64,000 nucleotides of DNA. Source: Roseateles sp. (GTDB lineage Bacteria > Pseudomonadota > Gammaproteobacteria > Burkholderiales > Burkholderiaceae_C). The stretch is taken from contig JAFALK010000049.1 in the NCBI GenBank assembly GCA_019234295.1, positions 17,107-81,106 on the forward strand, given 5' to 3'. A model generated the notes under the pieces. The model was not told the DNA's origin and did not search any database. It saw only the letters and a program-made list of their open reading frames with translations. Positions within the stretch are counted from its first letter, which is position 1. Each line of letters begins with the position of its first letter. Made by a program: the position numbers and the translations under genes. Below are positions 1 to 17,441 of this stretch, piece by piece.

Positions 1-342
1 CGCGAAGGAGACGAGCAGAGTGGGTGCGTCGTCTAGATAGAGCTCGGGGTGGGTCAGCAGGCTGGTCGTCGCGACGCAGCGGACCTGGGCCGGCCAGGCG
101 CTGTTGATCTCGTCCACGGCGATCTCGCCCACGAAGGCCGAGCTGCCGGCGCCCGTGAGGATCACGCGGTTCCCGGCCTCGTTCAGCCAAGTGCCGAGAA
201 AGGCGCTGATGCCGGCTTTCTCACCGGCGAGCGATTGTGCGAGCGCGCGCCAGAGCTGCGCTTGCTGGGCGATTTCCTCGGCGGTGTCGGCACCGCCAAT
301 GCGCTGCCAGTCCTGAAGGTCGCGATGGAGAAGAGTGTTCAT
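1..342 (-). CDS. agaS: AgaS-type SIS-domain sugar isomerase (partial, N-terminal part)
   Basis: Only the first 114 codons are in the window; the gene runs off the left edge. It starts at the ATG at 342. The visible part has the sugar-isomerase (SIS) signature VILTGAGSSAFVGE (about residues 61-74), followed by VATTSLLTHPE and the start of the LLVSFA strand, as in AgaS proteins. AgaS deaminates and isomerises galactosamine-6-phosphate to tagatose-6-phosphate in the cytoplasm, the step after GalNAc-6-phosphate deacetylation. It is divergent from an operon of GalNAc-active glycosidases, which supports this role over a glucosamine-specific SIS protein. The missing C-terminal half prevents a firmer substrate call. 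Confidence 0.85.
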   Translation of the reverse strand, partial: MNTLLHRDLQDWQRIGGADTAEEIAQQAQLWRALAQSLAGEKAGISAFLGTWLNEAGNRVILTGAGSSAFVGEIAVDEINSAWPAQVRCVATTSLLTHPELYLDDAPTLLVSFA

Positions 343-365
343 TGCTCAATTCAAAGTGCTGCGCA

Positions 366-394
366 ACGATAACGATTAACTTTCGAAATGTCAA
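366..394 (-). promoter_or_regulatory. sigma70-type promoter of agaS
   Basis: On the minus strand a perfect -35 TTGACA (389-394) is followed by a 17-nt spacer and TATCGT (366-371) as -10, placing the start of transcription near 359, about 17 nt upstream of the agaS ATG. The spacer contains the palindrome TTTCGAAA (381-388). Confidence 0.55.
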
Positions 395-396
395 AC

Positions 397-404
397 AAAG
401 AAAG
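397..404 (-). promoter_or_regulatory. CTTTCTTT box next to the agaS -35
   Basis: Minus-strand CTTTCTTT ends two bases before the TTGACA at 389-394. The same octamer lies just upstream of the -35 of the opposite promoter (592-599). Candidate shared operator; the regulator is unknown. Confidence 0.4.
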
Positions 405-591
405 ATAACGAAAGAATCTTAGAGCTGAATCATTGATCGAGAGACTTGAATTGCTCGAATCCGGCCCGCGACTCGGATGCAATCGTTTATGAAGCGAAAG
501 TTAAATTCCTGAAATAAATGCATATCGAAAGATAATAGAGAGGATTTTCTAGTGGTTTTCACCTGATTTTCATGGTTTAGGCGCCAAAGTG

Positions 592-599
592 CTTTCTTT
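592..599 (+). promoter_or_regulatory. CTTTCTTT box next to the GH31-operon -35
   Basis: Plus-strand CTTTCTTT followed by TCG and then the -35 TTGACC. It mirrors the box at 397-404 in sequence and in position relative to the -35. Confidence 0.4.
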
Positions 600-602
600 T
601 CG

Positions 603-631
603 TTGACCTGAGCCAAGTCGATGCATAGAGT
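603..631 (+). promoter_or_regulatory. sigma70-type promoter of the glycosidase operon
   Basis: TTGACC (603-608), a 17-nt spacer and TAGAGT (626-631). Transcription would start near 638, leaving a leader of about 55 nt before the ATG at 694. Confidence 0.5.
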
Positions 632-693
632 TTGCGAAACAAACGGCAATCGCAAGTGCTTTGCCGTTTCGATTTCCAGCCGAGGAGCATCAA

Positions 694-3600
694 ATGAAAG
701 CTCAGCCTACCCCGTTTCTTTCGCGTTCCCTCGCCCTGCTCGGCCTCGTGCTGAGCCTGCAGGCGGGGGCTGCGCCCATCGGCAATGCGCGCGAACTCAA
801 GCCCGTGAGCGGCGGCGACGGCAGCCCCGCCCAGTGGGAGCTCAAGACCGACCGCGGCGTGCTGCTGCACATCAGCCTGCCGCGCGCCGACGTGCTGCGC
901 CTGTGGGCCTCGGCGAAGGGGCCGCTGACCGGGCCGGGCGACAAGGCCGCGGCCATCGTCGTTGGCCTCCCCGATGACCAGGTGCCGGCCAAGCTCGAGG
1001 AGCAGGCCGACCACTGGCTGATCACGAGCCCGGCCCTGCGCCTGCGCATCGACAAGAAGCCGCTGCGCCTGACCCTGTACCGCTCCGGCGAGAGCGAGCC
1101 GCTGTGGCGCGAGCTGGAGCCGCTGGACCTTGGCGACAAGCTCGCCATCCAGACTCTCTCCAGTGACAAGAACGAGCATTTCTACGGCGGCGGCCAGCAG
1201 AACGGCCGCTTCGAGTTCAAGGGCCGTCAGCTTGACGTGTCCTACTCGGGCGGCTGGGAAGAGGGCGACCGGCCCAGCCCCGCACCCTTTTTGATGAGCT
1301 CGCGCGGCTGGGGCATGCTGCGCAACACCTGGTCCGACGGCAGCTACGACCTGCGCCAACCGGCTCAGATCACACTGTCCCACCAGGAAGGCCGCTTCGA
1401 CGCTTACTACTTCGTTGGCGCTTCAATCAAGGACGTGCTGGCCCGGTACACCGAGTGGACCGGCCGCGCCCGTCTGCTGCCGCGCTGGGCCTTGGAGTAC
1501 GGCGACGCCGATTGCTACAACGACGGCGACAACGTCAAGAAGCCGGGCACCGTGCCCAAGGGCTGGAGCGACGGCCCCACGGGCAAGACGCCCGACGTGA
1601 TCGACACGGTGGCGAAGAAGTACCGCGAGCACGACATGCCCGGCGGCTGGATCCTGCCCAACGACGGCTACGGCTGCGGCTACACCGACCTGCCCAAGGT
1701 CGTGCAGGGCTTGAAGCGGTACGGCTTCCGCACCGGCCTGTGGACCGAGAACGGCGTGGACAAGATCAAGTGGGAGGTCGGCACGGCCGGCACCCGCGCG
1801 CAAAAGCTCGACGTGGCCTGGACCGGCAAGGGCTACCAGTTCTCGCTCGACGCCAACAAGGCCGCGTACGAGGGCATCCTGGACAACTCCGACGCGCGCC
1901 CCTTCATCTGGACCGTGATGGGCTGGGCCGGCACGCAGCGCTACGCCGTGACTTGGACCGGCGACCAGAGCAGCAGCTGGGACTACATCCGCTGGCATGT
2001 GCCGACGCTGATCGGCTCGGGCCTCTCGGGCCAGGCCTATGCCAGCGGCGACGTGGACGCCATCTTCGGCGGTAGCCCCGAGACCTTCACGCGCGACCTG
2101 CAGTGGAAGAGCTTCACGCCGGTGCTCATGGGCATGTCGGGCTGGGCCTCGGCTGCGCGCAAGCACCCTTGGTGGTACGAGGAGCCGTACCGCAGCATCA
2201 ATCGCAAGTACCTCAAGCTCAAGCTGCGGCTCACGCCGTACATGTACACGCTGGCCCGCGAGGCCGAGCGCAGCGGCGCGCCGCTGGTGCGGGGCTTGAT
2301 GTGGGACCACCCGCAAGATCCGGGCGCGCTGACGGAAGCGAACAAGTACGAGTTCTTGCTCGGGCGCGAACTGCTCGTCGCGCCGGTCTATCGCAGTCAG
2401 GCCGCGAGCCAGGGCTGGCGCACGGACATTCACCTGCCGCAGGGCCGCTGGATCGACTACTGGGACGGCCGCCAGCTGCGGGCTCCCGCCGCGGGCCGCG
2501 ACATTGACGAACAGGTCACGCTCGACAAGCTGCCCGTCCTTGTCCGCGCCGGCGCCATCCTGCCCATGTATCCCGAAATGCTGTTCGACGGTCAGAAGCC
2601 GCTCGACGTGCTGACGCTGGACCTCTACCCCGAAGGCGCCTCCGAGTTCACGCTCTATGAAGACGACGGCCTGACGCGCCAGTACCAAGGCGGGGCCTTC
2701 AGCCAGCAGCGCATCGCGATGCAGCTGCAGGGCACGACGCTGCACGTTCAGCTCGACCCCGCGCAGGGCGAGTACGCCGGCCAGCTCGCCAAGCGCGGTC
2801 ATGTGCTGCGCCTGCTGAGCCGCCGCCCTCCCGAGTCCGTCGACATGGATGGCCAGGCGCTGCAGCGCTTCACAGATGCCGCCGCCTACGCGTCTGCATC
2901 ACAGGGCTGGTTCTTCGATGCGAACGATCGGCTGGGCACCGTGCACGTAAAAACCGCGGCGCACGACATCCGCCAGCCCTTGAGCTTCGAGCTGCGCGGC
3001 ATTCAGGCCGCACCCCTGACCGACGACGCGTTCCCCGCCGCGCCGGCCTTGGGGCCTGAGCTGCCGGCCGACGCGCTTGTGGTGATGAGCCGCCCCGCCG
3101 AGGAGCCCGGCAATCCGCTGGAAAACGCCTTCGACGGCAAGCCCGAGACCTGGTTCCGCACCTCGCGCGACCAGCGCGTCAAGGCCGGTCCGCACGAGTG
3201 GGTGCTGGGCTTCACCGAGAGGCGCCTGATCGCTGGCATCGAGATCGCGCCGCGCAACGACCAGCACTGGCAGTACGGCCAGATCCGCGACTACGAGGTC
3301 TACATGGCCGACAACATGGGCGACTGGGGCACGCCGGTGCAGCGCGGCCGCCTGAAGCTGCAGCAGGGCGCTCAGCGCATCGAGTTCGCCACGCCCCAGG
3401 CCGGTCGCCTGCTGCGCTTTCGCGTGCTGAGCACGCACAACCCGGACGCGGACAACGGCAGCACCGCGGACCCGATGGTGAGCGCCGCGCAAGCCGTGCA
3501 GCCGGCCAAGGCCTTCAATGCCCAGCAGCCGGTCGAGGTCGGCCCCGTCACGCTGTCCGAGTTCCACGTGCTGGAGTACCGCCCCGCCGTGCGCCCGTCG

Positions 3601-4032
3601 GCGCAGCTGTACCTGTCTGACCTGGCGCTGCCCAAGGCCATCGGCCGCGACAAGCCGCAAGGCAGCGGCCCGGCCATGCGCATGAACGGGCTGCTGTTCC
3701 GCAAGGGGCTGGGCATGGGCGCGCAGGGACGCATGGACCTGAGCCTCTCCGGCGACTGGCAGCTGCTGCGTGCGGACCTCGGCGTGGACGACAGCTGCCG
3801 CAAGGCCGGCGGCCTGCAGTTCCAGGTCTGGAGCGGCGAGCGCTTGCTCTACGACAGCGGCCTCGTGCAGGCCCCAGCCGTGGTCAAGCCCGAGATAGAC
3901 GTCCGGGGCCTCACGCACCTGAGCCTGCGCACCCTCGGCGCCCAAGGCGCGCAGCCGGCCGCTGTCTGCGGCAACTGGGCCAACGCATCCCTGATCGGCA
4001 TGGAGGGCAGTCGCGCCTCCATCCAACCCTGA
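694..4032 (+). CDS. GH31 glycosidase, probable alpha-N-acetylgalactosaminidase, with two C-terminal CBMs
   Basis: A 1112-residue secreted protein. The ATG at 694 is chosen because GAGGAG (682-687) is well placed and the N-terminus then reads as a signal peptide ending near AGAAP; the frame stays open upstream to a TTG at 661. The GH31 barrel spans roughly residues 140-700. Asp373 in KLDVAWTG fits the nucleophile and Asp424 in TWTGDQSSSW the acid/base. The motifs GLWTENGVDKIKW and VMGWAGTQRYAV resemble, from memory, the GH31 subfamily shown to act on alpha-GalNAc rather than ordinary alpha-glucosidases. An F5/8 type C (CBM32-like) domain lies at about 801-962 and an NPCBM/CBM51-like domain at about 971-1107; CBM51 members can bind galactose and blood-group A/B sugars. 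It is the first gene of a four-gene operon. The family call is strong, the exact substrate is inferred. Confidence 0.85.
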   Translation: MKAQPTPFLSRSLALLGLVLSLQAGAAPIGNARELKPVSGGDGSPAQWELKTDRGVLLHISLPRADVLRLWASAKGPLTGPGDKAAAIVVGLPDDQVPAKLEEQADHWLITSPALRLRIDKKPLRLTLYRSGESEPLWRELEPLDLGDKLAIQTLSSDKNEHFYGGGQQNGRFEFKGRQLDVSYSGGWEEGDRPSPAPFLMSSRGWGMLRNTWSDGSYDLRQPAQITLSHQEGRFDAYYFVGASIKDVLARYTEWTGRARLLPRWALEYGDADCYNDGDNVKKPGTVPKGWSDGPTGKTPDVIDTVAKKYREHDMPGGWILPNDGYGCGYTDLPKVVQGLKRYGFRTGLWTENGVDKIKWEVGTAGTRAQKLDVAWTGKGYQFSLDANKAAYEGILDNSDARPFIWTVMGWAGTQRYAVTWTGDQSSSWDYIRWHVPTLIGSGLSGQAYASGDVDAIFGGSPETFTRDLQWKSFTPVLMGMSGWASAARKHPWWYEEPYRSINRKYLKLKLRLTPYMYTLAREAERSGAPLVRGLMWDHPQDPGALTEANKYEFLLGRELLVAPVYRSQAASQGWRTDIHLPQGRWIDYWDGRQLRAPAAGRDIDEQVTLDKLPVLVRAGAILPMYPEMLFDGQKPLDVLTLDLYPEGASEFTLYEDDGLTRQYQGGAFSQQRIAMQLQGTTLHVQLDPAQGEYAGQLAKRGHVLRLLSRRPPESVDMDGQALQRFTDAAAYASASQGWFFDANDRLGTVHVKTAAHDIRQPLSFELRGIQAAPLTDDAFPAAPALGPELPADALVVMSRPAEEPGNPLENAFDGKPETWFRTSRDQRVKAGPHEWVLGFTERRLIAGIEIAPRNDQHWQYGQIRDYEVYMADNMGDWGTPVQRGRLKLQQGAQRIEFATPQAGRLLRFRVLSTHNPDADNGSTADPMVSAAQAVQPAKAFNAQQPVEVGPVTLSEFHVLEYRPAVRPSAQLYLSDLALPKAIGRDKPQGSGPAMRMNGLLFRKGLGMGAQGRMDLSLSGDWQLLRADLGVDDSCRKAGGLQFQVWSGERLLYDSGLVQAPAVVKPEIDVRGLTHLSLRTLGAQGAQPAAVCGNWANASLIGMEGSRASIQP

Positions 4033-4075
4033 CACCACGACACCCAACCGACGCATTTATCGGAGACACAAGACC

Positions 4076-7000
4076 ATGCAAGACAAGTTCAATCCGCCGA
4101 GCGGACTCAAGATCAGCACCCTGGCCGTGGCCGCCGCCCTGAGCCTGATGGCCGCGCCCGGTGCCTGGGCACAGTCCAACACCACGACGCGGATCTTCGG
4201 TGAGGTCAAGACCAGCGCGGGCGCCAGCATCGTGCTGGTCAACGTGGACACCGGCGTGCAGCGCGCGCTGACCCCCGACGCCAGCGGCCACTACCTGGCC
4301 AACTCCTTGCCGCCGGGGCGCTACCAGGTGCGCCTGATGCGCGACGGCCAGCTGGAATCGCAGCAAGAGGTCGAGGCCTTGGTGGGCAGCGGCGTGGAAG
4401 CCAACTTCGACGCAGTCCAGGCCCTCGGAACGGTGACGATCAGCGGCAGCATCAAACGCATCGACGTCTCCAGCACCAACAACGGCGTGACCTTCACGGC
4501 GTCCGAGCTGAAGGCCCTGCCGGTCGCCAACGACGTGATGTCGGTCGCCCAGCTCACGCCCGGTGTGACCCGCAACACCAACGGCCAGTACGGCAGCACG
4601 CCGCAGATCGGCGGCTCGGGCGCTTCCGAGAACGCCTACTACGTGAACGGCTTCCCGGTCACCAACATCTTGACGCAGATCGGCGCGGCTGAGCTGCCCT
4701 TCGGCGCCATTGGAAACATGCAGCTGCTCACGGGCGGCTACGGCGCCGAGTTCGGCCGCTCCACCGGCGGCGTGATCAACATCACCACCAAGAGCGGGGG
4801 CAACACCTGGGAAGTCGGCGGCAAGGTGTCGTACTCGCCTGCCTCGCTGCACAGCCAGCCCGCCAACACTTACTACCCGAAGACCGGCTCCAACCCGCTG
4901 ACCGACGGCAAGCTGCTCTACTGGAACCAGGACAACACCAGCACCAGCAAGGTCTACGGCGTCTATGCCGGTGGACCGATCATCCAGAACAAACTGTTCG
5001 CCTTTATCGCCGCCGAGCAGACCCAGACCGATGCCGACTCCGTGGCCGTCTCCAGCGACCCCGGCAAATCGACGACCGGCTGGAGTGTCTCCAACACCAA
5101 GGTCGAGCACTACCTGCTCAAGCTCGACTACAACATCACCGACGACCACCACCTCGAATACACGGGCATGTTCGACCGCAGCGTCTTGCGCTCCCAGGGT
5201 TTCGGCTACGACTACGCCACGCTGAGCTCGAACGGCGTGGCCGGCAACCGGGGCGAGACCGACGTCAACAACTGCCCGAACAACGGCTACTGCGTGCCGG
5301 GCGCCAAGCTCAATGTCCTCAAGTACACGGGCTACCTCACCGACAAGCTGACGCTGACCGCCCTGTACGGTGATTCGCGCACCACCCATTCGCGCACGCC
5401 CGCTGGCTACGATGCCACGCTGGCGCAGACGAGCTCCTCGATCACGACCCGCGTCCCTGGCCTGACGTACAACAACCCGCAGACCGTGACCGGCCTGCTG
5501 ACGGCGCCGGGTTCGGGTGACGAGCAAAAGGGCGGGCGCCTGGACCTCGAGTACCAGCTCGGCTCGCACGACATCCGCGGCGGCATCGATCAGATGCACA
5601 TTTCCTCCGTCGTCGGCACCCAGCTGGCCGGCGGATCGAGCTGGACCTACCTGCACTACGCCAACCCCAACCAGCTGCCCTTCGGCGCCACCGAGTCGCC
5701 GGCGCAGGGCGGTGGCTACGGCACGCAGGGCTACTTCGTCAGCCAGAACTTCAACAGCAAGCTGGCTCGACCCAAGAGCGTGCAGTCGGCGCAATACATC
5801 CAGGACCGCTGGCAGGTCACGCCGCGCGTGTTGCTGGATCTGGGCCTGCGCCGCGAGCAGTTCACCAACGACGACAGCCAGGGCCGCCACCTGATCTCGG
5901 AGCGCAATATGCTGGCGCCGCGTCTGGCCGCGAGCTGGGACATCAATGGCGACGGTGGCACCAAGCTCTATGCCAATGCCGGCCGCTACCACCTGCCCGT
6001 GCCGTCCAGCTTGTCCAGCAATATCGCCACTGGTCTGCTGTCCACGAGCACCTACTACACCTACACCGGCGTCGATCCAGCCACCGGTGCGCCGACCGGC
6101 CTGCAGGCCATCAGCAAGGCGACCTCGGTCAACAACTACTTCGGCCAGACGCCCGACCCGCGTTCGCTGGTGGCCATCAACCTGAAGCCGCTGTCGCAGG
6201 ACGAGTTCGCAATGGGCCTGGAGCATTCGTACTCGAAGCAGCTCAACGTCGGCGCGAGCGTGCAGTACCGGCGCCTCAACGACACGCTGGACGACACCTG
6301 CGACCAGCGCCCCATCGATGCCTGGGCTGCCCGCAACGGCGTGGACGAGAGCAACTACGCCGGCTTTCAGTGCGCCGTCATGAACCCCGGCCGCGACAAC
6401 AGCATGCTCGTGGACTTCGGCGACGGCCATGGCTTCCGCCGCGTGGATATCAGTGCCGCCGACTGGGGCAACCCCCGGCCCAACCGCACCTACAAGGCGC
6501 TCAACTTGTTCGCCGAGCATCCGTTCACCGATGGCTGGTACGGCAAGCTGACCTACACGCTGTCCTATAGCAAGGGCAACCAGGAAGGCCAGACTGATTC
6601 CGTCGGCGGCGGCGACGTGGGCCTGACCGTGAGCGACGACTACAAGGAGCTGATGTACCACTCCTACGGCTATCTCGCCAACGACCATCGCCATGCCTTC
6701 AAGGCCTACGGCTATGCCCAGGTTCATCCGGAATTCCTCGTCGGCGCCAACCTGCAGCTGGTCTCCGGTGCACCGCGCAGCTGCATGGGCAACTATCCTG
6801 ACCAGGCGGTCGCCGACTACATCGGCTACGGCGCTTCGTACTTCTACTGCAATGGCGTCGCGGCCCCGCGCGGCACCGGTGGACGCCTGCCCTGGTATAC
6901 CCAGCTGGACCTGAACCTGACCTTCAAGCCCGCCTCGATCAAGGGCCTGAGCATCAAGGGCGACTGGTTCAACGTGTTCAATTCGCAAACGACCACGCGC

Positions 7001-7120
7001 ATGAACGACGTGCACGACACGGCCGACCTCGGCGCCGTGAGCCCGACATATGGCCAGATCACGGGCCGCCAGTCACCGGGTGCGGTCCGCCTGACCCTGG
7101 AATACACGCTGGGTCTGTGA
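4076..7120 (+). CDS. TonB-dependent outer-membrane receptor, Oar/carboxypeptidase-regulatory type, probable glycan importer
   Basis: A 1014-residue receptor. The ATG at 4076 follows GGAG about 10 nt upstream; the signal peptide ends at AWA-Q (residue 33). A carboxypeptidase-regulatory-like beta-sandwich (about 38-115) precedes the plug domain (about 140-245, containing GYGAEFGRSTGGVINITTKS) and a long beta-barrel to the C-terminus. Such receptors use TonB energy to bring large ligands into the periplasm. It lies 43 bp after the GH31 gene and 41 bp before the GH109 gene, so uptake of GalNAc-containing oligosaccharides is the natural inference. Substrate specificity cannot be read from the sequence. 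Confidence 0.85.
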   Translation: MQDKFNPPSGLKISTLAVAAALSLMAAPGAWAQSNTTTRIFGEVKTSAGASIVLVNVDTGVQRALTPDASGHYLANSLPPGRYQVRLMRDGQLESQQEVEALVGSGVEANFDAVQALGTVTISGSIKRIDVSSTNNGVTFTASELKALPVANDVMSVAQLTPGVTRNTNGQYGSTPQIGGSGASENAYYVNGFPVTNILTQIGAAELPFGAIGNMQLLTGGYGAEFGRSTGGVINITTKSGGNTWEVGGKVSYSPASLHSQPANTYYPKTGSNPLTDGKLLYWNQDNTSTSKVYGVYAGGPIIQNKLFAFIAAEQTQTDADSVAVSSDPGKSTTGWSVSNTKVEHYLLKLDYNITDDHHLEYTGMFDRSVLRSQGFGYDYATLSSNGVAGNRGETDVNNCPNNGYCVPGAKLNVLKYTGYLTDKLTLTALYGDSRTTHSRTPAGYDATLAQTSSSITTRVPGLTYNNPQTVTGLLTAPGSGDEQKGGRLDLEYQLGSHDIRGGIDQMHISSVVGTQLAGGSSWTYLHYANPNQLPFGATESPAQGGGYGTQGYFVSQNFNSKLARPKSVQSAQYIQDRWQVTPRVLLDLGLRREQFTNDDSQGRHLISERNMLAPRLAASWDINGDGGTKLYANAGRYHLPVPSSLSSNIATGLLSTSTYYTYTGVDPATGAPTGLQAISKATSVNNYFGQTPDPRSLVAINLKPLSQDEFAMGLEHSYSKQLNVGASVQYRRLNDTLDDTCDQRPIDAWAARNGVDESNYAGFQCAVMNPGRDNSMLVDFGDGHGFRRVDISAADWGNPRPNRTYKALNLFAEHPFTDGWYGKLTYTLSYSKGNQEGQTDSVGGGDVGLTVSDDYKELMYHSYGYLANDHRHAFKAYGYAQVHPEFLVGANLQLVSGAPRSCMGNYPDQAVADYIGYGASYFYCNGVAAPRGTGGRLPWYTQLDLNLTFKPASIKGLSIKGDWFNVFNSQTTTRMNDVHDTADLGAVSPTYGQITGRQSPGAVRLTLEYTLGL

Positions 7121-7161
7121 AGGGTGGTGGACCACAATCGGCCAGGACTCTGAGCACTTCC

Positions 7162-8514
7162 ATGCAACGTCGAGACTTTCTCGTGTCCAGCGTGGCCGCA
7201 GCCGGCATGGCGGCCTCCTTCAACCCCGCCCATGCCGCCGGGCGCGAGCGCGTGCGCTTGGGCGTGATCGGCACCGGCATGCGCGGCCAGGTGCTGCTGG
7301 CTGAGCTGCTGCGCCGCGCCGATGTCGAGGTCGTGGCGCTGTGCGACATCGAGCCCATCAATTTGGGCCGGGCGCTGGCCATCGTGGAACAGGCCGGCAA
7401 ACCGAAGCCTCGCACCTGGGGTGAGGACCGCGACCCGCAGGCTTGGCGACAGCTGCTCGATCCGTCAAGGATCGACGGCGTCATCATCGCCACACCCTGG
7501 GAATGGCATGCGCCGATGGCCATCGGCGCGATGCAGGCCAAGGTGCCCGTGGGTTGCGAGGTCGTCGCCGGCATCACGCTGCAGGACCACTGGGATGTGC
7601 TCAACACCCAGCTCAAGACCGGCACGCCCTACATGCTGCTGGAGAACGTTTGCTTCCGCCGCGACGTGATGGCGGTGCTGCAGATGGTGCGCGCGGGCCT
7701 CTTCGGCGAGCTCGTGCATCTGCAGGGCGGCTACCAGCACGACCTGCGCGCCGTGAAGCTCAACTCCGGCGACCCGGCCAGGCCCTATGGCGGCGGCGTG
7801 GAGTTCGGGCCCAAGGGCTGGAGCGAGGCGCGTTGGCGAACCGAGCATTCCGTGCACCGCAACGGCGAGCTCTACCCGAGCCACGGCATCGGGCCCTGCG
7901 CGATGTACGCCAACATCCACCGCGGCAACCGCTTCACCCACATCAACAGCTTCGCCACCAAGTCGCGCGGCCTGCACGAGTACATCGAGGCGCTGGGCGG
8001 CAAGGACCACCCGAATGCGTCGGTCAAGTTCGCGCTCGGCGACGTGATCACGACGACGCTGGCCTGCGCGAATGGCGAGACCATCCTGCTGCAGCATGAC
8101 ACCTCGCTGCCGCGGCCGTACTCACTGGGCTTTCGTGTGCAGGGCACCAAGGGGCTGTGGATGGATGTCAACGAGTCGGTGTATGTGGAGGGCATCAGCC
8201 CGCCGCACCAATGGCAGCCCTTCCAGCCCTTCCAAGACAGGTTCGACCACCCGCTGTGGAAGAGGTTCGCCAAATCGGCCGAGGGCGCAGGCCACGGCGG
8301 CATGGACTTCTTCGTGATCCATGCCTTCGTCGAATCGCTGAAGGCCGCGGCCGCGATGCCCATCGACATCTTTGATGCCGTGGCCTGGAGCGCGATCACA
8401 CCGCTGTCGGAGCAGTCCATCGCCAGCGGCTTCAAGACGCTGGAGTTCCCCGACTTCACCGGTGGCTCGTGGAAGACGCGCAAGCCGATCTTCGCCTTCG
8501 ACGATCGCTATTGA
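7162..8514 (+). CDS. GH109 family glycosidase/oxidoreductase, probable NAD-dependent alpha-N-acetylgalactosaminidase
   Basis: A 450-residue protein. The ATG at 7162 gives a Tat-like signal (QRRDFLVSS, then a hydrophobic stretch to AHAAG), fitting a cofactor-carrying protein exported folded; a GTG at 7117 is less likely. A Rossmann fold starts with VRLGVIGTGMRGQ (NAD binding) and is followed by a GFO/IDH/MocA-type C-terminal domain. Tyr191 in GGYQHDLR and His241 in YPSHGIGP have nearly the spacing of the catalytic Tyr and His described for the Elizabethkingia GH109 enzyme. That family releases terminal alpha-GalNAc by a transient-oxidation mechanism, for example from blood group A. Its place beside a GH31, a GH20 and agaS fits GalNAc release. 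Some GH109-like proteins have other sugar specificities. Confidence 0.85.
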   Translation: MQRRDFLVSSVAAAGMAASFNPAHAAGRERVRLGVIGTGMRGQVLLAELLRRADVEVVALCDIEPINLGRALAIVEQAGKPKPRTWGEDRDPQAWRQLLDPSRIDGVIIATPWEWHAPMAIGAMQAKVPVGCEVVAGITLQDHWDVLNTQLKTGTPYMLLENVCFRRDVMAVLQMVRAGLFGELVHLQGGYQHDLRAVKLNSGDPARPYGGGVEFGPKGWSEARWRTEHSVHRNGELYPSHGIGPCAMYANIHRGNRFTHINSFATKSRGLHEYIEALGGKDHPNASVKFALGDVITTTLACANGETILLQHDTSLPRPYSLGFRVQGTKGLWMDVNESVYVEGISPPHQWQPFQPFQDRFDHPLWKRFAKSAEGAGHGGMDFFVIHAFVESLKAAAAMPIDIFDAVAWSAITPLSEQSIASGFKTLEFPDFTGGSWKTRKPIFAFDDRY

Positions 8515-8594
8515 AGGCACCCAGCGCTGAGCGCGGACGCGGGCTGCACGACAATGCCGTCCCGCCACCCTTTCCCTGCCTTGGAGTCGTGTCG

Positions 8595-10490
8595 ATGAGG
8601 TCGATTGTTTTCCTGGCGCTGTGGGCCTGTACCGCGGCCTTCGCGTCCGAGCTGAGCGTGCCCGCCCTCATTCCGGCGCCGGTCGAAATGCAGCGGTATG
8701 CGGGCGAGTTCCGCATCAATGCCGCCACTCGCATCGCCGTGCAGTCCGCAGAACTGAGCGAAGTGGCCGAGGATCTGGCCCAGCACCTGCGCCGCGCCAC
8801 CGGCTTCAGAATTCCGGTCGACAAGAGCCGACTCAAGGTCGCGAGCAGCAATCGCATTGTGTTCGCCTTGGATACCCGGCTGGCGGCCGAGGGCTACCGG
8901 CTGAACGTCAGCCGCCAGCGGGTCGTGCTGGTTGGTGCTTCGCCGGCCGGAGCGTTTCGCGGCGTGCAGACGCTGCTGCAACTGCTGCCCAAGGAGATTG
9001 AGCGGGAGGTCGTGACGAAGCCCTTGGCCTGGACCATGCCTGCGCTCGCCATCAGTGACCAACCGCGCTTTGGCTGGCGCGGGCTCATGCTCGACGTCTC
9101 GCGCCACTTCTTCACCGTCGACGAGGTCAAGGGCTTTATCGACCAGATGGTCAAGTACAAATTCAACCTGCTGCACTGGCACCTGACGGACGACCAGGGC
9201 TGGCGCGTCGAGATCAAGAGCCTGCCGCGCCTGACCGAAGTCGGGGCGTGGCGGGTGGGCAAGACCGGCACTTTCGGGCGCTTCTCGCCGCCCACCGCTG
9301 ACGAACCGCGGGACTACGGGGGCTTCTACACGCAAGATCAGGTCCGCGAGGTCGTGGCCTATGCCAAGGCTCGGTATGTGGATGTGCTGCCCGAGGTCGA
9401 CATGCCGGGGCACAGCCTGGCCGCGCTGGCGGCCTACCCGGAACTGAGCTGCACGCCCGGCAGCTACGCCGTCAACGCTGGCGAGCCCATGTTCGTTCGG
9501 CAGCCGGGCGAGCACTCGCGGGCGCTGGTGGACAACACGCTGTGCCCCGCCAACGAGAAGGTCTACGCGTTCGCGGACCAGGTGTTTACGGAGCTGGCTC
9601 AGCTCTTCCCCTTCGAGTACCTGCACATGGGCGGCGACGAAACCGTCCGCAGCTTCTGGGCAAAGAGCGAGGCCATCCAGGGTCTGATGGAACGCGAGAA
9701 GCTCAAGAACCTTGACGAGGTGCAGGCCTACTTCGTGGGCCGGATCCAGAAGATCATCAGCGCCAAGGGCAAGAAGCTGATCGGTTGGGACGAGATCCTG
9801 CAGGGCGGGCTGGTGCCGGATGCTGCGGTCATGAGCTGGCGCGGCATGCAGGGCGGCATCGACGCGGCCCGGCTCGGGCACGAGGTGGTGATGTCGCCCA
9901 GCGACTTCGTCTACGTGGACCTGATGCAGGGCGACGCGGCGATCGAGCCCCCGGTCTATTCCTCGCTGCGCCTGAGCAAGACCTACCAGTTCGAGCCGGT
10001 GCCGGAGGGCGTCGATGCGCGGCTGGTCAAGGGAGGGCAGGCCAATCTGTGGACCGAGCAGATCTACAACATGCGGCACGCGCAATACATGACCTGGCCG
10101 CGCGCGCTGGCCGTGGCCGAAGCATTGTGGAGCCCGAAGGACAAGCGTGACTGGGCCGGCTTCGTGCCCCGGATGGAAGCGCACTTCAAGCGCTTCGACG
10201 AGGCCAGGGTTAAGTACGCGCCCAGCCTCTACGACCCGATCATCAAAGCCACTGAAGCGGCGGCGGGCGGCCTGCAGGTGGAAATGAGCACCGAGGTCGC
10301 CGGCCTGAGCCTGCACTACAGCTTCGATGGCTCATTCCCGGACGAGTTCTATCCGGCCTACTCTGCGCCGCTGGCCGTGCCCAAGGATGCCGCCGTCATG
10401 AAGGTGATTGCCTACCGCGACGACAAGCCGCTTGGGCGGATGCTCGTGGTGCCGGTGGAGGAATTGCGCAAACGCGCTGGCAAGCCCTGA
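8595..10490 (+). CDS. GH20 beta-N-acetylhexosaminidase
   Basis: A 631-residue protein. The ATG at 8595 (TGGAG at 8582-8586) gives a short signal peptide ending near AFASE. Domains: an N-terminal GH20b-like domain (about 22-150), the catalytic barrel with WHLTDDQGWR near residue 195 and the catalytic pair Asp348-Glu349 in HMGGDET, and a C-terminal CHB/HEX-type sandwich. GH20 enzymes cleave terminal beta-GlcNAc or beta-GalNAc by substrate-assisted catalysis in the periplasm or outside. It is the last gene of the operon, 80 bp after the GH109 gene, and would trim beta-linked HexNAc from the same glycans. Confidence 0.92.
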   Translation: MRSIVFLALWACTAAFASELSVPALIPAPVEMQRYAGEFRINAATRIAVQSAELSEVAEDLAQHLRRATGFRIPVDKSRLKVASSNRIVFALDTRLAAEGYRLNVSRQRVVLVGASPAGAFRGVQTLLQLLPKEIEREVVTKPLAWTMPALAISDQPRFGWRGLMLDVSRHFFTVDEVKGFIDQMVKYKFNLLHWHLTDDQGWRVEIKSLPRLTEVGAWRVGKTGTFGRFSPPTADEPRDYGGFYTQDQVREVVAYAKARYVDVLPEVDMPGHSLAALAAYPELSCTPGSYAVNAGEPMFVRQPGEHSRALVDNTLCPANEKVYAFADQVFTELAQLFPFEYLHMGGDETVRSFWAKSEAIQGLMEREKLKNLDEVQAYFVGRIQKIISAKGKKLIGWDEILQGGLVPDAAVMSWRGMQGGIDAARLGHEVVMSPSDFVYVDLMQGDAAIEPPVYSSLRLSKTYQFEPVPEGVDARLVKGGQANLWTEQIYNMRHAQYMTWPRALAVAEALWSPKDKRDWAGFVPRMEAHFKRFDEARVKYAPSLYDPIIKATEAAAGGLQVEMSTEVAGLSLHYSFDGSFPDEFYPAYSAPLAVPKDAAVMKVIAYRDDKPLGRMLVVPVEELRKRAGKP

Positions 10491-10668
10491 TCAACAGCCG
10501 GCCTTCAGCGCCATCGAGGGCACCGTCGTTGACTGGGTTGATTCCGTAGCGCAATTGGATGCGGGAACGCATTCGACTGTTCTTCAGGAGCGCTTGCCGT
10601 TCCGAAACGCGCCCACCCCGCCATGGCCTGCACCTTCGCCAACGAATCAGGGAACTTCGATCCGCCGA

Positions 10669-10923
10669 CTATTTGTTGATCTTTCTATAGCGCGCCTCGA
10701 TCCTGCCGCAGAAATCACCAAGCTTCAGATCAAGCGCTGTCGCGATCCGAAGAAGCACGCTGATGGTGGGTTGCTTCCGGCCCACCTCGATCAGCGAGAT
10801 GTACGGCCTATCCAAATCAGCGCGATGAGCAAGGTCTTCCTGCGTCAGATCGAGCTCGAGCCGGCGTGCTTTCACTTCGATGGCTAAGGCTTCGATGAGA
10901 GGTTGATTTCGACTGGGCCGCAT
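10669..10923 (-). CDS. XRE-family HTH transcriptional regulator
   Basis: An 84-residue protein that is essentially one Cro/C1-type helix-turn-helix: LTQEDLAHRADLDRPYISLIE is interrupted only by the turn, then RKQPTISVLLRIATALD (about residues 25-68). No ligand-binding or peptidase domain. AAAGG lies just before the ATG at 10923. The half-site of an inverted repeat (10928-10935) overlaps this ribosome-binding region, so autoregulation is likely. It is divergent from an ECF sigma gene; the target is unknown. Confidence 0.85.
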   Translation of the reverse strand: MRPSRNQPLIEALAIEVKARRLELDLTQEDLAHRADLDRPYISLIEVGRKQPTISVLLRIATALDLKLGDFCGRIEARYRKINK

Positions 10924-10927
10924 TGGC

Positions 10928-10973
10928 CTTTAGTGTTTGCATTGTGTACACTAAAGACACGTGTCTATAGACA
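10928..10973. promoter_or_regulatory. nested palindromes between the XRE and sigma genes
   Basis: Three perfect dyads in 46 bp: CTTTAGTG (10928-10935) with CACTAAAG (10949-10956), 13-nt spacer; the self-complementary AGACACGTGTCT (10955-10966); and TGTCTATAGACA (10962-10973). The first is the likely XRE operator. A weak rightward promoter TTGTGT-18-TATAGA (10942-10971) would overlap all three. Confidence 0.55.
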
Positions 10974-11034
10974 GCAATTTTGCGCTTTGCGCCCGACACG
11001 TTCACTCAGGCGCAGTGCATTGCGGGGATCTGAC

Positions 11035-11514
11035 GTGCTTAAGAACTTGCCCCCCATCTTTTCCCGGGTCCGCGCAGCCTTGATGCGCCGCGGCCGTTCG
11101 GAGCACGAAGCGGAGGACCTTGTGCAGGAGGCTTGGGTGCGCCTCGCTTGCTACGAACAAGAACAAGTAGTCCTGGAGCCTGAGGCATTCATGATGCGAA
11201 CCGCGCTCAACCTCTCAATCGATGCGCACCGCTCTAGCGTCAGTCACGGCGAAGAGGTGCTGCTGGAGGAAGTTGTCCTTGTCGATTCAGCCCCCAGCAC
11301 GGAGGCGATCGTCCTCGGCCGGGAGCGCGCCCGGCGCATGAGCCACTGCCTTGGCCGACTGCCCGACAGGTCTCGTGCGATCTTTCTTGCTCATCGGATC
11401 GACGGCCGGACGTACCAGGACATTGCCAATGAGCACGGTTTGAGCATCAGCACCGTCGAAAAGCACATTGCCCGCGCAACAATGCAGCTCACCACTTGGA
11501 TGGACGGATGGTAG
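11035..11514 (+). CDS. orphan ECF (FecI-like) RNA polymerase sigma factor
   Basis: 159 residues from the GTG at 11035, chosen because GGGGA (11024-11028) is correctly spaced; an ATG at 10903 would put the start inside the XRE gene. Region 2 is visible as EHEAEDLVQEAWVRL and region 4 as LPDRSRAIFLAHRIDGRTYQDIA plus the HTH GLSISTVEKHIARA. FecI-type sigma factors usually sit beside a FecR-like sensor and a TonB-dependent receptor; neither follows here. The XRE gene and palindromes upstream suggest control by transcription instead. Confidence 0.85.
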   Translation: MLKNLPPIFSRVRAALMRRGRSEHEAEDLVQEAWVRLACYEQEQVVLEPEAFMMRTALNLSIDAHRSSVSHGEEVLLEEVVLVDSAPSTEAIVLGRERARRMSHCLGRLPDRSRAIFLAHRIDGRTYQDIANEHGLSISTVEKHIARATMQLTTWMDGW

Positions 11515-11588
11515 CGTCACGGCGTGATGCGGGGTGTTGAGCTGAAATCTGGCCGCCACCTCCGCGCCTGGTGACCCGGCCAGCGCGA

Positions 11589-11933
11589 TCACACCTTCTT
11601 CACGAACTCTGACTTCAAGCCCATCGCCCCGATCCCGTCGATCTTGCAGTCGATGTCGTGATCGCCGTCGGTGAGGCGGATGTTCTTCACCTTGGTCCCA
11701 ACCTTGACGACCAGGGACGATCCCTTGATCTTCAGGTCCTTGACGACCGTGACCGTGTCGCCGTCCTGCAGAACATTGCCCACCGCGTCCTTGATGACGC
11801 GGACCTCATCGCCTGCGGCAGATTCCGACTCCTGAGCCGACCATTCGTTGCCGCACTCAGGGCAGATCAGTTGGGAGCCGTCCTCGTAGGTGTAGGCGGA
11901 TTGGCATTTGGGGCAGGCGGGCAGGGTGCTCAT
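11589..11933 (-). CDS. yjdM: YjdM/PhnA-family zinc-ribbon protein
   Basis: 114 residues. An N-terminal zinc ribbon with CPKC (about 8-11) and CPEC (about 24-27) is followed by the family's [24 protein letters not shown] core and a C-terminal [17 protein letters not shown] strand pair. Length matches the family. Historically named PhnA, although most members have no proven link to phosphonate use; cellular role unknown. It reads leftward, convergent with the sigma gene, and stands alone. Confidence 0.9.
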
Positions 11934-11987
11934 GGCGGTATCGCTGTCGGAAATGAAGAGGAAGGCCCCGCGCGCTTGCGCGAACTC

Positions 11988-12170
11988 TCAGGCTTGGTTC
12001 TCGTCGGTGCCGCTGGGCACAAAGCTTGCGCCATGCGCTGCCAGGTACTCGCGTATCAGTCGGCGAACCACCTGCGAGGGTGTGACGTCCTGCTTGGCGC
12101 AGAGCGCCTCGAACGCCTTCTTTTTGGCTGGGTCGATCAAGACTGTCAGTCGTGCTGTCTTCTGTTCCAT
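11988..12170 (-). CDS. small ribbon-helix-helix (CopG-like) protein
   Basis: 60 residues. The segment TARLTVLIDPAKKKAFEAL gives a beta strand then helix, and TPSQVVRRLIREYL a second helix, the pattern of ribbon-helix-helix DNA-binding proteins and many antitoxins. No toxin gene adjoins it; the neighbour upstream is a divergent membrane-protein gene. A good leftward promoter lies at 12206-12233. Likely a small repressor; target unknown. Confidence 0.75.
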   Translation of the reverse strand: MEQKTARLTVLIDPAKKKAFEALCAKQDVTPSQVVRRLIREYLAAHGASFVPSGTDENQA

Positions 12171-12205
12171 GATGCCCGCCGCACCGACATAGATATGTGC
12201 GTCAG

Positions 12206-12233
12206 ATTATAATAAAAAACTAATTGAAGGCAA
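12206..12233 (-). promoter_or_regulatory. promoter of the ribbon-helix-helix gene
   Basis: On the minus strand TTGCCT (12228-12233), a 16-nt AT-rich spacer and a perfect TATAAT (12206-12211). Transcription would start near 12199, about 30 nt before the ATG at 12170. Confidence 0.55.
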
Positions 12234-12249
12234 ATTCGATTGGAGACGA

Positions 12250-13119
12250 GTGCCCGTGGGAATCCAGTCTGGCAATCCTGAAGGGGGGCCCGCGCCCGAC
12301 GACGCTTCTCGATCCGCAATCGGTGGGCCATCGATGGGTCGGTCTTCTCTCACGGCCCTCAAGTACCTGCACCGTTTGACGGGGCGACGCCGCAACCGCA
12401 CGGTCAACCGGCAGCTGGGTGGCATCCTCGCCTTCGTAGCGGGGGCGGTGAATGCGGGCGGATTTCTTGCCGTGCAGCGCTACACCTCGCACATGACCGG
12501 CGTCATCTCGGCCATGGCAGACAACCTGGCGACCGGCGGACTTGCGCTGGCCTTGGCCGGCATGGCCTCGCTGCTGTCGTTTGTGTTGGGCGCGAGTTGC
12601 ACGGCCATTCTGATCAACTGGGCGAGGCGTCGGCGCATGCATAGCAAGTACGCGCTGGCCTTGTTGCTGGAGGCCGGGATGCTGCTGGTTTTCGGCCTGA
12701 TCGGCGCCAATCTGGAGTCCTCCGGGCATCTGCTGGTGCCCAGCGCCGTGCTGCTGCTTTGCTTCATCATGGGTCTTCAAAACGCCATCGTCACCAAGAT
12801 TTCCCAGGCCGAGATTCGCACCACCCATATGACCGGAAACGTCACGGACCTGGGCATCGAATTGGGACGCTTGCTCTACTGGAATCGCACGCACGCGGCC
12901 AACCAGGTTCACTTCGTGAGGGCCAATCGCGACAAGCTGTTCATCCACGCGGTGATCCTGAGTCTGTTCTTTGTCGGTGGTGTCATCGGTGCGCTGGCAT
13001 TCAAGGGCTTCGGCTTCTCGGCCACGATTCCGATTGCCTGCCTTCTGCTGGTGATGGCCTTTCCGCCGCTGGTCCGCGACATGCGGCGCGCACGCGTCGG
13101 TCATTCGCCAACACCATGA
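12250..13119 (+). CDS. DUF1275 (YoaK-family) integral membrane protein
   Basis: 289 residues from the GTG at 12250; an ATG at 12334 with a purine-rich stretch upstream would give a 261-residue product and is a real alternative, since the first 28 residues are poorly ordered. About six membrane segments, beginning with LGGILAFVAGAVNAGGFLAV, and the family motifs TSHMTGVISAMADNL and TTHMTGNVTDLGIELG. The biochemical function of DUF1275 proteins is not established. It stands alone in + orientation before a spermidine-synthase-like gene, with a 44-bp gap. Confidence 0.85.
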   Translation: MPVGIQSGNPEGGPAPDDASRSAIGGPSMGRSSLTALKYLHRLTGRRRNRTVNRQLGGILAFVAGAVNAGGFLAVQRYTSHMTGVISAMADNLATGGLALALAGMASLLSFVLGASCTAILINWARRRRMHSKYALALLLEAGMLLVFGLIGANLESSGHLLVPSAVLLLCFIMGLQNAIVTKISQAEIRTTHMTGNVTDLGIELGRLLYWNRTHAANQVHFVRANRDKLFIHAVILSLFFVGGVIGALAFKGFGFSATIPIACLLLVMAFPPLVRDMRRARVGHSPTP

Positions 13120-13163
13120 CCACCGCATGTGAAGCGATCTCAAGTCCATTCAGCTGAAACACC

Positions 13164-13937
13164 ATGCCCCAGAACGCCGACAGCCACGAGCACGTCAAAC
13201 CCTATGTCTACGAGACGCCGCACAGCAAGGCGCTTCATTTCACGATCTCGCAGATCCAGAGTCGCATGCAGACCAACCGGCCGGATGCACTCGATCTGGA
13301 CTACACGCGGACCATGATGGGCGTGCTGCTGTTCAACAGCAGGCCAGAGAGCCTGGCCATGATTGGCCTCGGAGGTGGTTCGCTGGCCAAGTTCTGCCAT
13401 CGGCATCTCCCTGCCACCCGGATCAAGGTCGTGGAGATCAACCCGCACGTGATCGCCTTGCGCGACGAGTTCGGCATTCCGTCTGACGATCAGCGGTTCA
13501 AAGTTCGGCGCGGAGACGGTGCGGCCTACGTGCAAGAGGCACCCTACCCGGTCGATGTGCTGATGGTGGACGGCTTCGACAGCGAAGGCCAGCCGCCCGC
13601 CTTGTGCTCGCAGCGCTTCTACGACGATTGCTACGACACCTTGCAGCCGGGCGGCATCCTGGTCGTCAATCTTCACGCGTGGCACGACAGCTACGAAGTC
13701 TTCATCGACAGGATTAGTCGCAGCTTCGCCAATGAAGTGCTGGTCGTCCCCGGCGCAGATTGCAGCAACAACATCGTGTTTGCGAGCAAGGGCACGCTCT
13801 TGCCCCGCTTCAATCCATCGATCCTGCGCAAGCACGTGCAATTCGATCAACAGACCTGGAACGAGCTGAGGCCGGCGTTCGTTCGAGTTGCATCCGCGTT
13901 GATGAAGCAGGCCGAGGGCAGGTCCAGGGCAACGTGA
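13164..13937 (+). CDS. spermidine-synthase-like SAM-dependent protein
   Basis: 257 residues with a class I methyltransferase/polyamine synthase fold: glycine-rich nucleotide site AMIGLGGGSLAKF (about 65-77), acidic strand end IKVVEINPHVI (about 90-100), then VLMVDGFDSEGQP in the region of the catalytic Asp. Proteins of this type are often annotated SpeE-like, but many lack true aminopropyltransferase activity. No speD or other polyamine gene is nearby, so the substrate is left open. Confidence 0.8.
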   Translation: MPQNADSHEHVKPYVYETPHSKALHFTISQIQSRMQTNRPDALDLDYTRTMMGVLLFNSRPESLAMIGLGGGSLAKFCHRHLPATRIKVVEINPHVIALRDEFGIPSDDQRFKVRRGDGAAYVQEAPYPVDVLMVDGFDSEGQPPALCSQRFYDDCYDTLQPGGILVVNLHAWHDSYEVFIDRISRSFANEVLVVPGADCSNNIVFASKGTLLPRFNPSILRKHVQFDQQTWNELRPAFVRVASALMKQAEGRSRAT

Positions 13938-13985
13938 AGCTCGCGCTTGCCTCGCGGGGTGACGGGCCATAGACTGGCACGCTCA

Positions 13986-14786
13986 ATGCTGGAAATGCTG
14001 CGTACCCGTCGCTGCCTGTTCAGTCGCCCATTTGGCCTCCAATTGTGGAGCGTCCTCTTCTGGGCGGCCCTCAGCCCATGCAGTGGCGCCGAGCCCCGGA
14101 CCTTCTCCGTCGGCGTCGAGGACTATCCAAACTTCCTGCCCTACTCCTCCTGCGTCAAGGGCCAATACAGCGGCCTGGGGCGGGACATCCTCGACGCGTT
14201 TGCGCACGAGCGCGGCTACGTGTTCCGCTATGAGGTCTATCCGCTCAAGCGGCGCGACAGACTCTTCGTCGAAGGGCGGCTGGATTTCAGCTTTCCGGAC
14301 AACCCGAACTGGGTGGCGGATCTCAAGAAGAAGGTATCGATCGCCTATGCCCCGATGTTGGAGTTCACCGACGGCGTGTTGCTGAACGCCAGCGATCGGG
14401 GCAAGGGTGTTGCGCACTTGAAAGTGCTCGGCATTCCCCTGGGCTTCACGCCCTATCCCTACCAGCAGTTGATGATGGCGGGTGCCTTGAGAGTGGAGGA
14501 GTCGCAGCAGTACGACGCGCTCTACGAGCAACTCATCATGCGCCGTGTTGATGGCGCCTACATGAACACGCGGATCGCCCGGCACTACTGGTCGCGCCTT
14601 CACCCGGATCGCAAGACCGCGCTGGTCTACGACGCCAATCTGCCCCACGCCTCGGGCTATTGGTATCTGTCGTCGATCAAGTACTCGAGCATCATCGACG
14701 AGTTCAAGAGGTATCTCGCTGCGCATCGGCAGGACGTTGACGAGCTGAAGAAGCGCTATGGCTTCGATGCCGCGGAAGACGAGTAG
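13986..14786 (+). CDS. periplasmic substrate-binding protein of the SBP_bac_3 type
   Basis: 266 residues from the ATG at 13986. The N-terminus has a hydrophobic segment (about 17-33) ending near CSGAEP, consistent with a signal peptide. The mature protein starts TFSVGVEDYPNFLPYS and continues as a family-3 solute-binding fold with GLGRDILDAFA and a final EFKRYLAAHRQDVDELKKRYG helix. No ABC permease or ATPase adjoins it, so it is an orphan binding protein or sensor. Ligand unknown; amino acids are common for the family. Confidence 0.7.
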   Translation: MLEMLRTRRCLFSRPFGLQLWSVLFWAALSPCSGAEPRTFSVGVEDYPNFLPYSSCVKGQYSGLGRDILDAFAHERGYVFRYEVYPLKRRDRLFVEGRLDFSFPDNPNWVADLKKKVSIAYAPMLEFTDGVLLNASDRGKGVAHLKVLGIPLGFTPYPYQQLMMAGALRVEESQQYDALYEQLIMRRVDGAYMNTRIARHYWSRLHPDRKTALVYDANLPHASGYWYLSSIKYSSIIDEFKRYLAAHRQDVDELKKRYGFDAAEDE

Positions 14787-14824
14787 GCCGCCCATGCACC
14801 GACTCATGCCTGAGCACACAAGAA

Positions 14825-14856
14825 GAAGCCCCGCAGGCTTGCGCATGCGGGGCTTC
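14825..14856 (-). terminator. intrinsic terminator after tRNA-Asn (copy 1)
   Basis: Perfect 11-bp stem GAAGCCCCGCA/TGCGGGGCTTC (14825-14835 and 14846-14856) with a 10-nt loop, followed on the minus strand by a T-rich run. It may also stop transcription of the rightward binding-protein gene ending at 14786. Confidence 0.8.
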
Positions 14857-14860
14857 AAAG

Positions 14861-14936
14861 TGGCTCCTCGACCTGGGCTCGAACCAGGGACCTACGGATT
14901 AACAGTCCGGCGCTCTACCGACTGAGCTATCGAGGA
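14861..14936 (-). tRNA. tRNA-Asn (GTT), copy 1
   Basis: 76 nt including an encoded CCA. Read on the minus strand, TCCTCGA pairs with TCGAGGA in the acceptor stem, the D-loop has AGCTCAGTCGGTAGAGC, the anticodon loop is CTGTTAA with anticodon GTT, and the T-arm has GGTTCGAGCC. Identical to the copy at 15019-15094. Confidence 0.97.
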
Positions 14937-14977
14937 ATCGTTTGGGTGTGCCTGCCAATCGGTTGCAGCAGGCCATC

Positions 14978-15010
14978 AATAAAAAGAGAACCTCAACTGC
15001 AGGCTCTCTT
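14978..15010 (-). terminator. intrinsic terminator after tRNA-Asn (copy 2)
   Basis: On the minus strand a 9-bp stem with one G-U pair (15002-15010 with 14984-14992) and a 9-nt loop, followed by a run of T residues. It separates the two tRNA-Asn genes into independent transcripts. Confidence 0.75.
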
Positions 15011-15018
15011 GAATTCTG

Positions 15019-15094
15019 TGGCTCCTCGACCTGGGCTCGAACCAGGGACCTACGGATTAACAGTCCGGCGCTCTACCGACTGAGCTATCGAGGA
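15019..15094 (-). tRNA. tRNA-Asn (GTT), copy 2
   Basis: 76 nt, base-for-base the same as copy 1, including CCA and anticodon GTT. It is the upstream copy in the direction of transcription and is followed by its own terminator. Confidence 0.97.
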
Positions 15095-15143
15095 ACAGAG
15101 CCGCAAATTATAGACCAGAAATCGTCAGGCCGGCAAGCTCCGC

Positions 15144-17400: not shown

Positions 17401-17441
17401 TGCACCGCCCCTCAAGGCGGTGCGGGCGCAATTCTAGCGCT

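Follow-up and report, generated by a model that had tools for sequence, protein, structure and literature searches.

The locus under study occupies the left end of a 64,000-nucleotide stretch of DNA from Roseateles sp. (the window), which corresponds to positions 17107-81106 of contig JAFALK010000049.1 in a 4.47 Mb assembly of 97 contigs with 86.7% completeness. Its genes have a predicted role in the use of alpha-linked N-acetylgalactosamine (GalNAc). According to the open reading frame (ORF) list and the Pfam matches, window positions 694-10490 carry a plus-strand run of genes for a GH31 glycoside hydrolase, a TonB-dependent receptor, a GH109 enzyme and a GH20 enzyme, and this run diverges from agaS (Table 1). 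The genes named by an earlier note on this DNA, namely a divergent agaS, a GH31 with binding modules, the receptor, GH109 and GH20, were thus all found at the claimed place. The gaps within the run were 43, 41 and 80 nt, values which depend on the start codons chosen; these were picked from the signal-like sequences MKAQPT.., MQRRDF.. and MRSIVF...

The left flank was read as contig 1-20000 (L009, the coordinates of which are those of the contig). A ROK kinase, a NagA/AgaA-type deacetylase, AgaR and a sugar porter of the major facilitator superfamily (MFS) were all present there, as the same note had expected. The genes inside the window make up the outer half of a two-operon locus that is conserved in other genomes.

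Table 1. Positions of the genes, modules and sites of the locus, with domain or profile scores in bits (score versus cut-off where both are given)
Feature	Position	Strand	Description
agaS (5' part in the window)	window 1-342; full gene contig 16312-17448	-	start at window 342, exits window leftward; TIGR02815 agaS_fam 390 vs 529.2
ROK kinase (AgaK)	contig 15381-16322	-	ROK 215.5 vs 22.9; NagK model 280.5 vs 380
AgaZ	contig 14039-15433	-	TIGR02810 628.1 vs 568.8; family GatZ/KbaZ/AgaZ (PF08013)
AgaR	contig 13241-14020	-	NF040755 318.8 vs 260
NagA/AgaA-type deacetylase	contig 12147-13244	-	TIGR00221 nagA 224.5 vs 225.65
MFS sugar porter	contig ORF 10340-12238	-	true start likely ~12150
Divergent regulatory region	window 343-693		351 bp, CTTTC/GAAAG-rich
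Promoter-like site towards aga operon	window 366-394	-	TTGACA-17-TATCGT, overlaps CTTTC at 380
Predicted AgaR operator and -35/-10 of GH31 operon promoter	window 592-631	+	CTTTCTTTTCGTTGACC-17-TAGAGT
GH31	window 694-4032	+	Pfam GH31 domains; predicted secretion signal
F5/8C (CBM32-type) module of GH31 protein	window 3103-3441	+	PF00754 39; residues 815-927 of the 661-4032 ORF
NPCBM (CBM51-type) module of GH31 protein	window 3640-3993	+	PF08305 67.4; residues 994-1111 of the 661-4032 ORF
TonB-dependent receptor	window 4076-7120	+	Plug and OMP_b-brl_4; PF07715, PF25183, PF13620
GH109	window 7162-8514	+	PF21252 277.4; RRDF in N-terminus
GH20	window 8595-10490	+	PF00728 380.8; predicted export signal

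Conservation of the two-operon locus

At E 1e-80, this GH31 was found in 3 of 300 Burkholderiales genomes, its own included, and in none of the eight other genomes listed from the same family. A relative of the GH31 turned up in 239 stretches of the named species collection; the best 80 were examined and the other 159 were not. Genes at these loci were counted by tblastn with a flank reach of 10 kb, and six loci end at contig ends, so that the counts are lower bounds. The genera among the best 80 included Oxalobacteraceae-type genera (such as Duganella, Massilia and Janthinobacterium), Pelomonas and Paucibacter, as well as Stenotrophomonas, Lysobacter and Pseudoxanthomonas of the Xanthomonadales. 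A system confined to its own genome was therefore rejected, since the set is widespread in both orders.

The genes agaS, agaK, agaZ, agaR and agaA were present in 79, 78, 77, 77 and 72 of the 80 loci, respectively, and the MFS porter and GH109 in 66 and 72. Together, the five aga genes, GH31, GH109 and a receptor were found in 68/80 loci. Furthermore, in 79/80 loci agaS is situated upstream of GH31 and on the opposite strand, with a gap below 1 kb in 74, and this divergent arrangement is more than chance. The exceptions were four loci with the own-type receptor between agaS and GH31, one with about 4.5 kb between them (L056) and one without agaS (L071). For the receptors, the own type was detected in 25 loci (in two at only 30-34% identity), a classical type in 71, both in 17 and either in 79; ORF clustering recovered the classical receptor in only 52/80. 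The occurrence of two receptor types beside GH31 suggests that import specificities are exchanged while the enzyme core stays constant.

In midpoint-rooted protein trees, GH109 separates Xanthomonadales from Burkholderiales, whereas GH31 and AgaS do not, and for this reason no conclusion on transfer was drawn. The group labels were taken from record titles and some are guesses: a Bacillus-labelled record was grouped with Xanthomonadales, and the metagenome-assembled genomes L035 and L067 with Burkholderiales. One record titled Bacillus subtilis (L077, JAHREJ010000011.1) has the same Gram-negative locus, its core genes being 60-76% identical to those of the window, and the assembly is probably mislabelled or contaminated. 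In addition, a DUF5077-DUF3472 protein with a lipoprotein-like leader (for example L019:19367-20719) is encoded near GH31, the receptor and GH109 in 34/80 loci by tblastn and in 22 by ORF clustering. It is a candidate for a new protein acting in glycan binding or cleavage at these loci.

Predicted enzymes, receptor and shared regulatory region

The best PDB match of the GH31 protein was 6m76 (371.8 bits, E 6e-110), which is the same protein as 7f7q and 7f7r and is named a GH31 alpha-N-acetylgalactosaminidase. The next group of PDB chains reached 176.7 bits (E 4.9e-51), a gap of about 195 bits. The two proteins share the catalytic domain and two Asp residues, one of which is the residue mutated in 7f7q and 7f7r and aligns with Asp373 of the GH31 (numbered from the ATG at 694). 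Asp373 and Asp424 are kept in 80/80 relatives, and we take them to be the catalytic nucleophile and the acid/base, respectively. However, the 6m76-type enzyme is an LPXTG cell-wall protein, presumably from Enterococcus faecalis, whereas the present one comes from a Gram-negative bacterium and has a signal peptide as well as F5/8C and NPCBM modules. We assume that 6m76-like enzymes form subfamily GH31_18. The GH31 is predicted to be an exo-alpha-N-acetylgalactosaminidase, and an alpha-glucosidase or alpha-xylosidase was rejected on the nearest-structure comparison, in which 6m76 was far ahead.

For GH109, the best PDB match was 2ixa, also named an alpha-N-acetylgalactosaminidase (471.8 bits, E 1.9e-140, residues 44-465), and the domain scores exceeded the cut-offs of 27 for PF21252, the C-terminal domain of GH109, and 24 for PF01408 (32.7 bits). 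The GxGxxG motif of a Rossmann domain binding nicotinamide adenine dinucleotide (NAD) was found in the window's GH109 and in 72/72 relatives. Moreover, the aligned column of paired arginines is kept in 72/72 relatives, and a stricter twin-arginine motif within the first 90 residues was found in 66/72; the failures were four apparently overlong ORF starts and two motif variants. GH109 is predicted to be an NAD-dependent alpha-N-acetylgalactosaminidase with a twin-arginine leader, a mode of export which would fit because the enzyme carries NAD. The proposal of the earlier note that GH31 and GH109 act on alpha-GalNAc is thus in agreement with their nearest solved structures, which are alpha-N-acetylgalactosaminidases and not glucosidases.

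GH20 is predicted to be a beta-N-acetylhexosaminidase; it was rejected as part of the conserved core, since 0/80 of the relatives' loci carry it within the flanks. The receptor, which bears an N-terminal carboxypeptidase-regulatory-like domain, is a predicted glycan importer. No SusD match was found by Pfam among the four operon proteins, and the operon lacks the adjacent SusC/SusD pair of a Bacteroidetes-type polysaccharide-utilisation locus (PUL).

The region between agaS and GH31 contains six CTTTC/GAAAG sites (window 380, 400, 410, 496, 527 and 592) compared with 1.74 expected (P 0.0055, 2000 dinucleotide shuffles). The densest 350 bp of the contig lies here, with eight sites including two inside the GH31 start, and the maximum elsewhere is three. 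CTTTC is reportedly the core of the AgaR motif of Leyn et al. 2012. Among the relatives, 71/80 had both genes in the expected order under the rule of the script, and the 61 regions of 80-800 bp were used (19 dropped). These held 293 sites where 62.2 were expected, and in an unbiased search of them CGAAAG/CTTTCG stood out as the most enriched 6-mer (187 against 18.6). Three sigma-70-like promoters were found in window 300-11000, where 1.2 were expected (standard deviation 1.2), and all of them fall within 343-693. Furthermore, TTGAC-N17-20-TANAVT, the counterpart of the window's CTTTCTTTTCGTTGACC-17-TAGAGT, occurred in 45/61 regions (0.25 expected from mononucleotide shuffles) and adjoined a CTTTC/GAAAG site in 36 of those 45. 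The natural reading of the motif pattern would be an AgaR operator abutting the -35 element of the GH31 operon promoter.

The probable route of GalNAc degradation

The three best PDB chains for AgaS (3odp, 3c3j and 3i0z) are named putative tagatose-6-phosphate ketose/aldose isomerase, and the agaS product is predicted to be a galactosamine-6-phosphate deaminase/isomerase. The earlier note had also expected a tagatose-6-phosphate kinase. None was present among the left-flank aga genes, and no LacC-type kinase exceeded the cut-off in 23 genomes (a weaker match in 5/23); AgaZ without AgaY was found instead. AgaZ was present in 77/80 loci although an AgaY-type aldolase was not detected. The search with TIGR01858, the model of tagatose-bisphosphate aldolase (AgaY/KbaY), took in G219 and G269 together with 20 genomes from among the 80 loci, and then 50 more (G269 repeated), which makes 71 distinct relatives and leaves the genomes of ten loci uncovered. 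It gave no match over the cut-off in these 71; partial matches of at most 167 bits appeared in 45, and none at E 0.001 in 26. The sole PF01116 match in the own genome is of the fructose-bisphosphate type (TIGR01521 566.6 vs 496.35; the tagatose-type TIGR01858 209.4 vs 443.55). LacD was likewise found in 0/23 genomes at E 0.001. Among 14 named genomes used as controls, the TIGR01858, LacD and LacC profiles were each over the cut-off in 1/14.

The seven residues placed in the active site by the GatZ epimerase model of PMC11907403 (Cys20, Glu44, Asp87, His88, Glu171, His257 and Lys279) are kept in the own AgaZ (7/7) and in 77/77 relatives. In that paper, Escherichia coli GatZ and KbaZ are described as converting fructose-6-phosphate to tagatose-6-phosphate, with tagatose obtained from engineered strains; the reverse reaction is cited for GatZ and a zinc site is proposed. 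As AgaY, LacC and LacD were not found and the AgaZ residues are kept, the simplest pathway would run from GalNAc through GalNAc-6-phosphate, galactosamine-6-phosphate and tagatose-6-phosphate to fructose-6-phosphate. It is likely that GalNAc enters metabolism as fructose-6-phosphate without a dedicated tagatose kinase or aldolase.

Taken as a whole, the conserved locus quite probably frees terminal GalNAc outside the cytoplasm, imports it and degrades it, likely via fructose-6-phosphate. GH31 and GH109 would remove alpha-GalNAc and GH20 beta-linked N-acetylhexosamine, the receptor would carry glycan pieces into the periplasm, and the MFS porter would import GalNAc. In the cytoplasm, AgaK would form GalNAc-6-phosphate, AgaA galactosamine-6-phosphate and AgaS tagatose-6-phosphate, which AgaZ would epimerise at C4 to fructose-6-phosphate; a tagatose-6-phosphate kinase and a tagatose-bisphosphate aldolase would be unneeded because of this last step. 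AgaR may repress both operons by way of the CTTTC sites in the promoter region that they share, until a GalNAc-derived sugar appears. It also seems reasonably likely that Burkholderiales and Xanthomonadales share this AgaR-controlled alpha-GalNAc system, in which AgaZ would be the tagatose-6-phosphate 4-epimerase itself and not an aldolase subunit or a kinase.

Several observations weigh against this route. AgaS, the kinase and the deacetylase all score below their NCBIfam cut-offs, and their sugar specificity is therefore assigned by context. The seven AgaZ residues are highly conserved across the GatZ/KbaZ family according to PMC11907403, and by themselves they are therefore no proof of epimerase use. 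The absences in the own genome are weak because it is 86.7% complete, and the best LacC-like match reached 112.8 bits (in G317). Moreover, a PfkB kinase is encoded about 10 kb left of agaS (contig 4970-5893), next to a GH1 beta-glucosidase; among the NCBIfam models the kinase fits fructokinase best, though far under the cut-off (75.6 vs 450), and the tagatose kinase model gave 48.4 vs 420. A phosphofructokinase, present in 23/23 genomes, might phosphorylate tagatose-6-phosphate, and the class II fructose-bisphosphate aldolase of the own genome might cleave the resulting bisphosphate. Such a pathway, with the same GalNAc locus and with AgaZ or the general phosphofructokinase as the kinase, is rather unlikely, even though AgaZ was proposed as a tagatose-6-phosphate kinase by Leyn et al. 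2012 according to a review (PMC12118421). C4-epimerase activity has been reported for two family members (PMC11907403), and in the 26 relatives where TIGR01858 finds nothing at E 0.001, the aldolase would have to be of another type, which was not searched for.

The nature of the substrate was weighed as well. A reading in which glucose- or galactose-type alpha-glycosides are the substrates of GH31 and GH109, the aga neighbourhood being incidental, is highly improbable: the GH31 family is broad and the left flank also encodes a GH27, closest to alpha-galactosidases, and a GPH symporter, but the structure gap of GH31 favours alpha-N-acetylgalactosaminidase, as do the nearest relatives of GH109, and the near-constant divergent order with agaS and the shared operator-like region are also against it. 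There is about an even chance that the targets are alpha-GalNAc in microbial or fungal polymers (capsule, O-chains of lipopolysaccharide, galactosaminogalactan) or in algal or invertebrate glycoproteins, rather than vertebrate mucin or blood-group A. In favour of this, the relatives belong to genera such as Duganella, Massilia, Janthinobacterium and Lysobacter, which live mainly in soil, in water or on plants; as exo-enzymes, these types of GH31 and GH109 require only terminal alpha-GalNAc; and an M60 mucin peptidase was not detected in the own genome (86.7% complete). However, no GH114 (endo-alpha-1,4-galactosaminidase) was found in the own genome either, and enzymes that act on host glycans often carry CBM32 and CBM51. 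The proposal of the earlier note that the natural substrate is mucin or blood-group A is not supported and goes further than sequence can show.

Further sugar genes lie at contig 3588-9842, with GH1 and the PfkB kinase on the minus strand and a LacI regulator, the GPH symporter and GH27 on the plus strand. GH27 (contig 8388-9842) was considered as an additional alpha-N-acetylgalactosaminidase and left out of the locus model, because its best matches are the alpha-galactosidases 6f4c and 1uas, with the alpha-N-acetylgalactosaminidase 1ktb lower. Beside these genes, two tandem tryptophan-halogenase-family flavoproteins (PF04820 606 and 540 bits) are encoded on the minus strand at contig 18-3082. 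Downstream of GH20, window 10903-11514 encodes an extracytoplasmic function sigma factor; with the siderophore-type TonB receptor on the opposite strand (window 15144-17231), it perhaps forms a separate iron-uptake unit.

Comparison with known systems

The E. coli aga/kba cluster has import by the phosphotransferase system (PTS) and contains KbaY, whereas a porter and a kinase were found here and no AgaY. The two are alike in AgaR, AgaA, AgaS and KbaZ/AgaZ, gene names of that cluster which also occur in the review PMC12118421. A TonB-linked, kinase-type GalNAc pathway was predicted for Shewanella in 2010 (PMC2996990). The Shewanella pathway is likewise non-PTS, with AgaK, AgaA, AgaS, an inner-membrane permease and a TonB receptor (omp-Aga), but the available text of that paper names no GH31 and lists agaO without a function; the MFS porter and the divergent GH31-receptor-GH109-GH20 operon are features of the present locus. 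The PUL BT4240-50 of Bacteroides thetaiotaomicron also combines a GH109 alpha-N-acetylgalactosaminidase, a GalNAc kinase, and systems that carry O-glycan GalNAc across the outer membrane (import) and the inner membrane (a transporter). It differs in having SusC/SusD, GH2 and an M60 peptidase, with no GH31 listed in the available part of the source (PMC11992087), whereas the present operon, which stands alongside an AgaR-type pathway, showed neither SusD nor a peptidase.

The suggestion of the earlier note that a Burkholderiales version would be a new PUL-type system is therefore weaker than stated, given the Shewanella precedent and the loci in Stenotrophomonas, Lysobacter and Pseudoxanthomonas. 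GH109-containing GalNAc loci are already known from B. thetaiotaomicron; what would be new here is that GH31 and GH109 are paired with an AgaR locus in two orders and that AgaY is missing. A literature search at the level of abstracts, in which Leyn et al. 2012 was not compared, gave no description of a GH31-GH109-aga locus and no epimerase route for GalNAc.

Outside the gut phyla, a single conserved locus holds two predicted alpha-N-acetylgalactosaminidase families together with a TonB receptor and almost all of a GalNAc pathway, and it would supply new enzyme sources for trimming the A-antigen or O-glycans. In addition, with AgaZ present and no AgaY-type aldolase detected, the question whether Z proteins serve as chaperone, kinase or epimerase, which is disputed, can be put directly to the test in one simple pathway. 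If the proposed route is true, the orphan Z subunits of galactosamine pathways would be recast as the key enzyme of the pathway.

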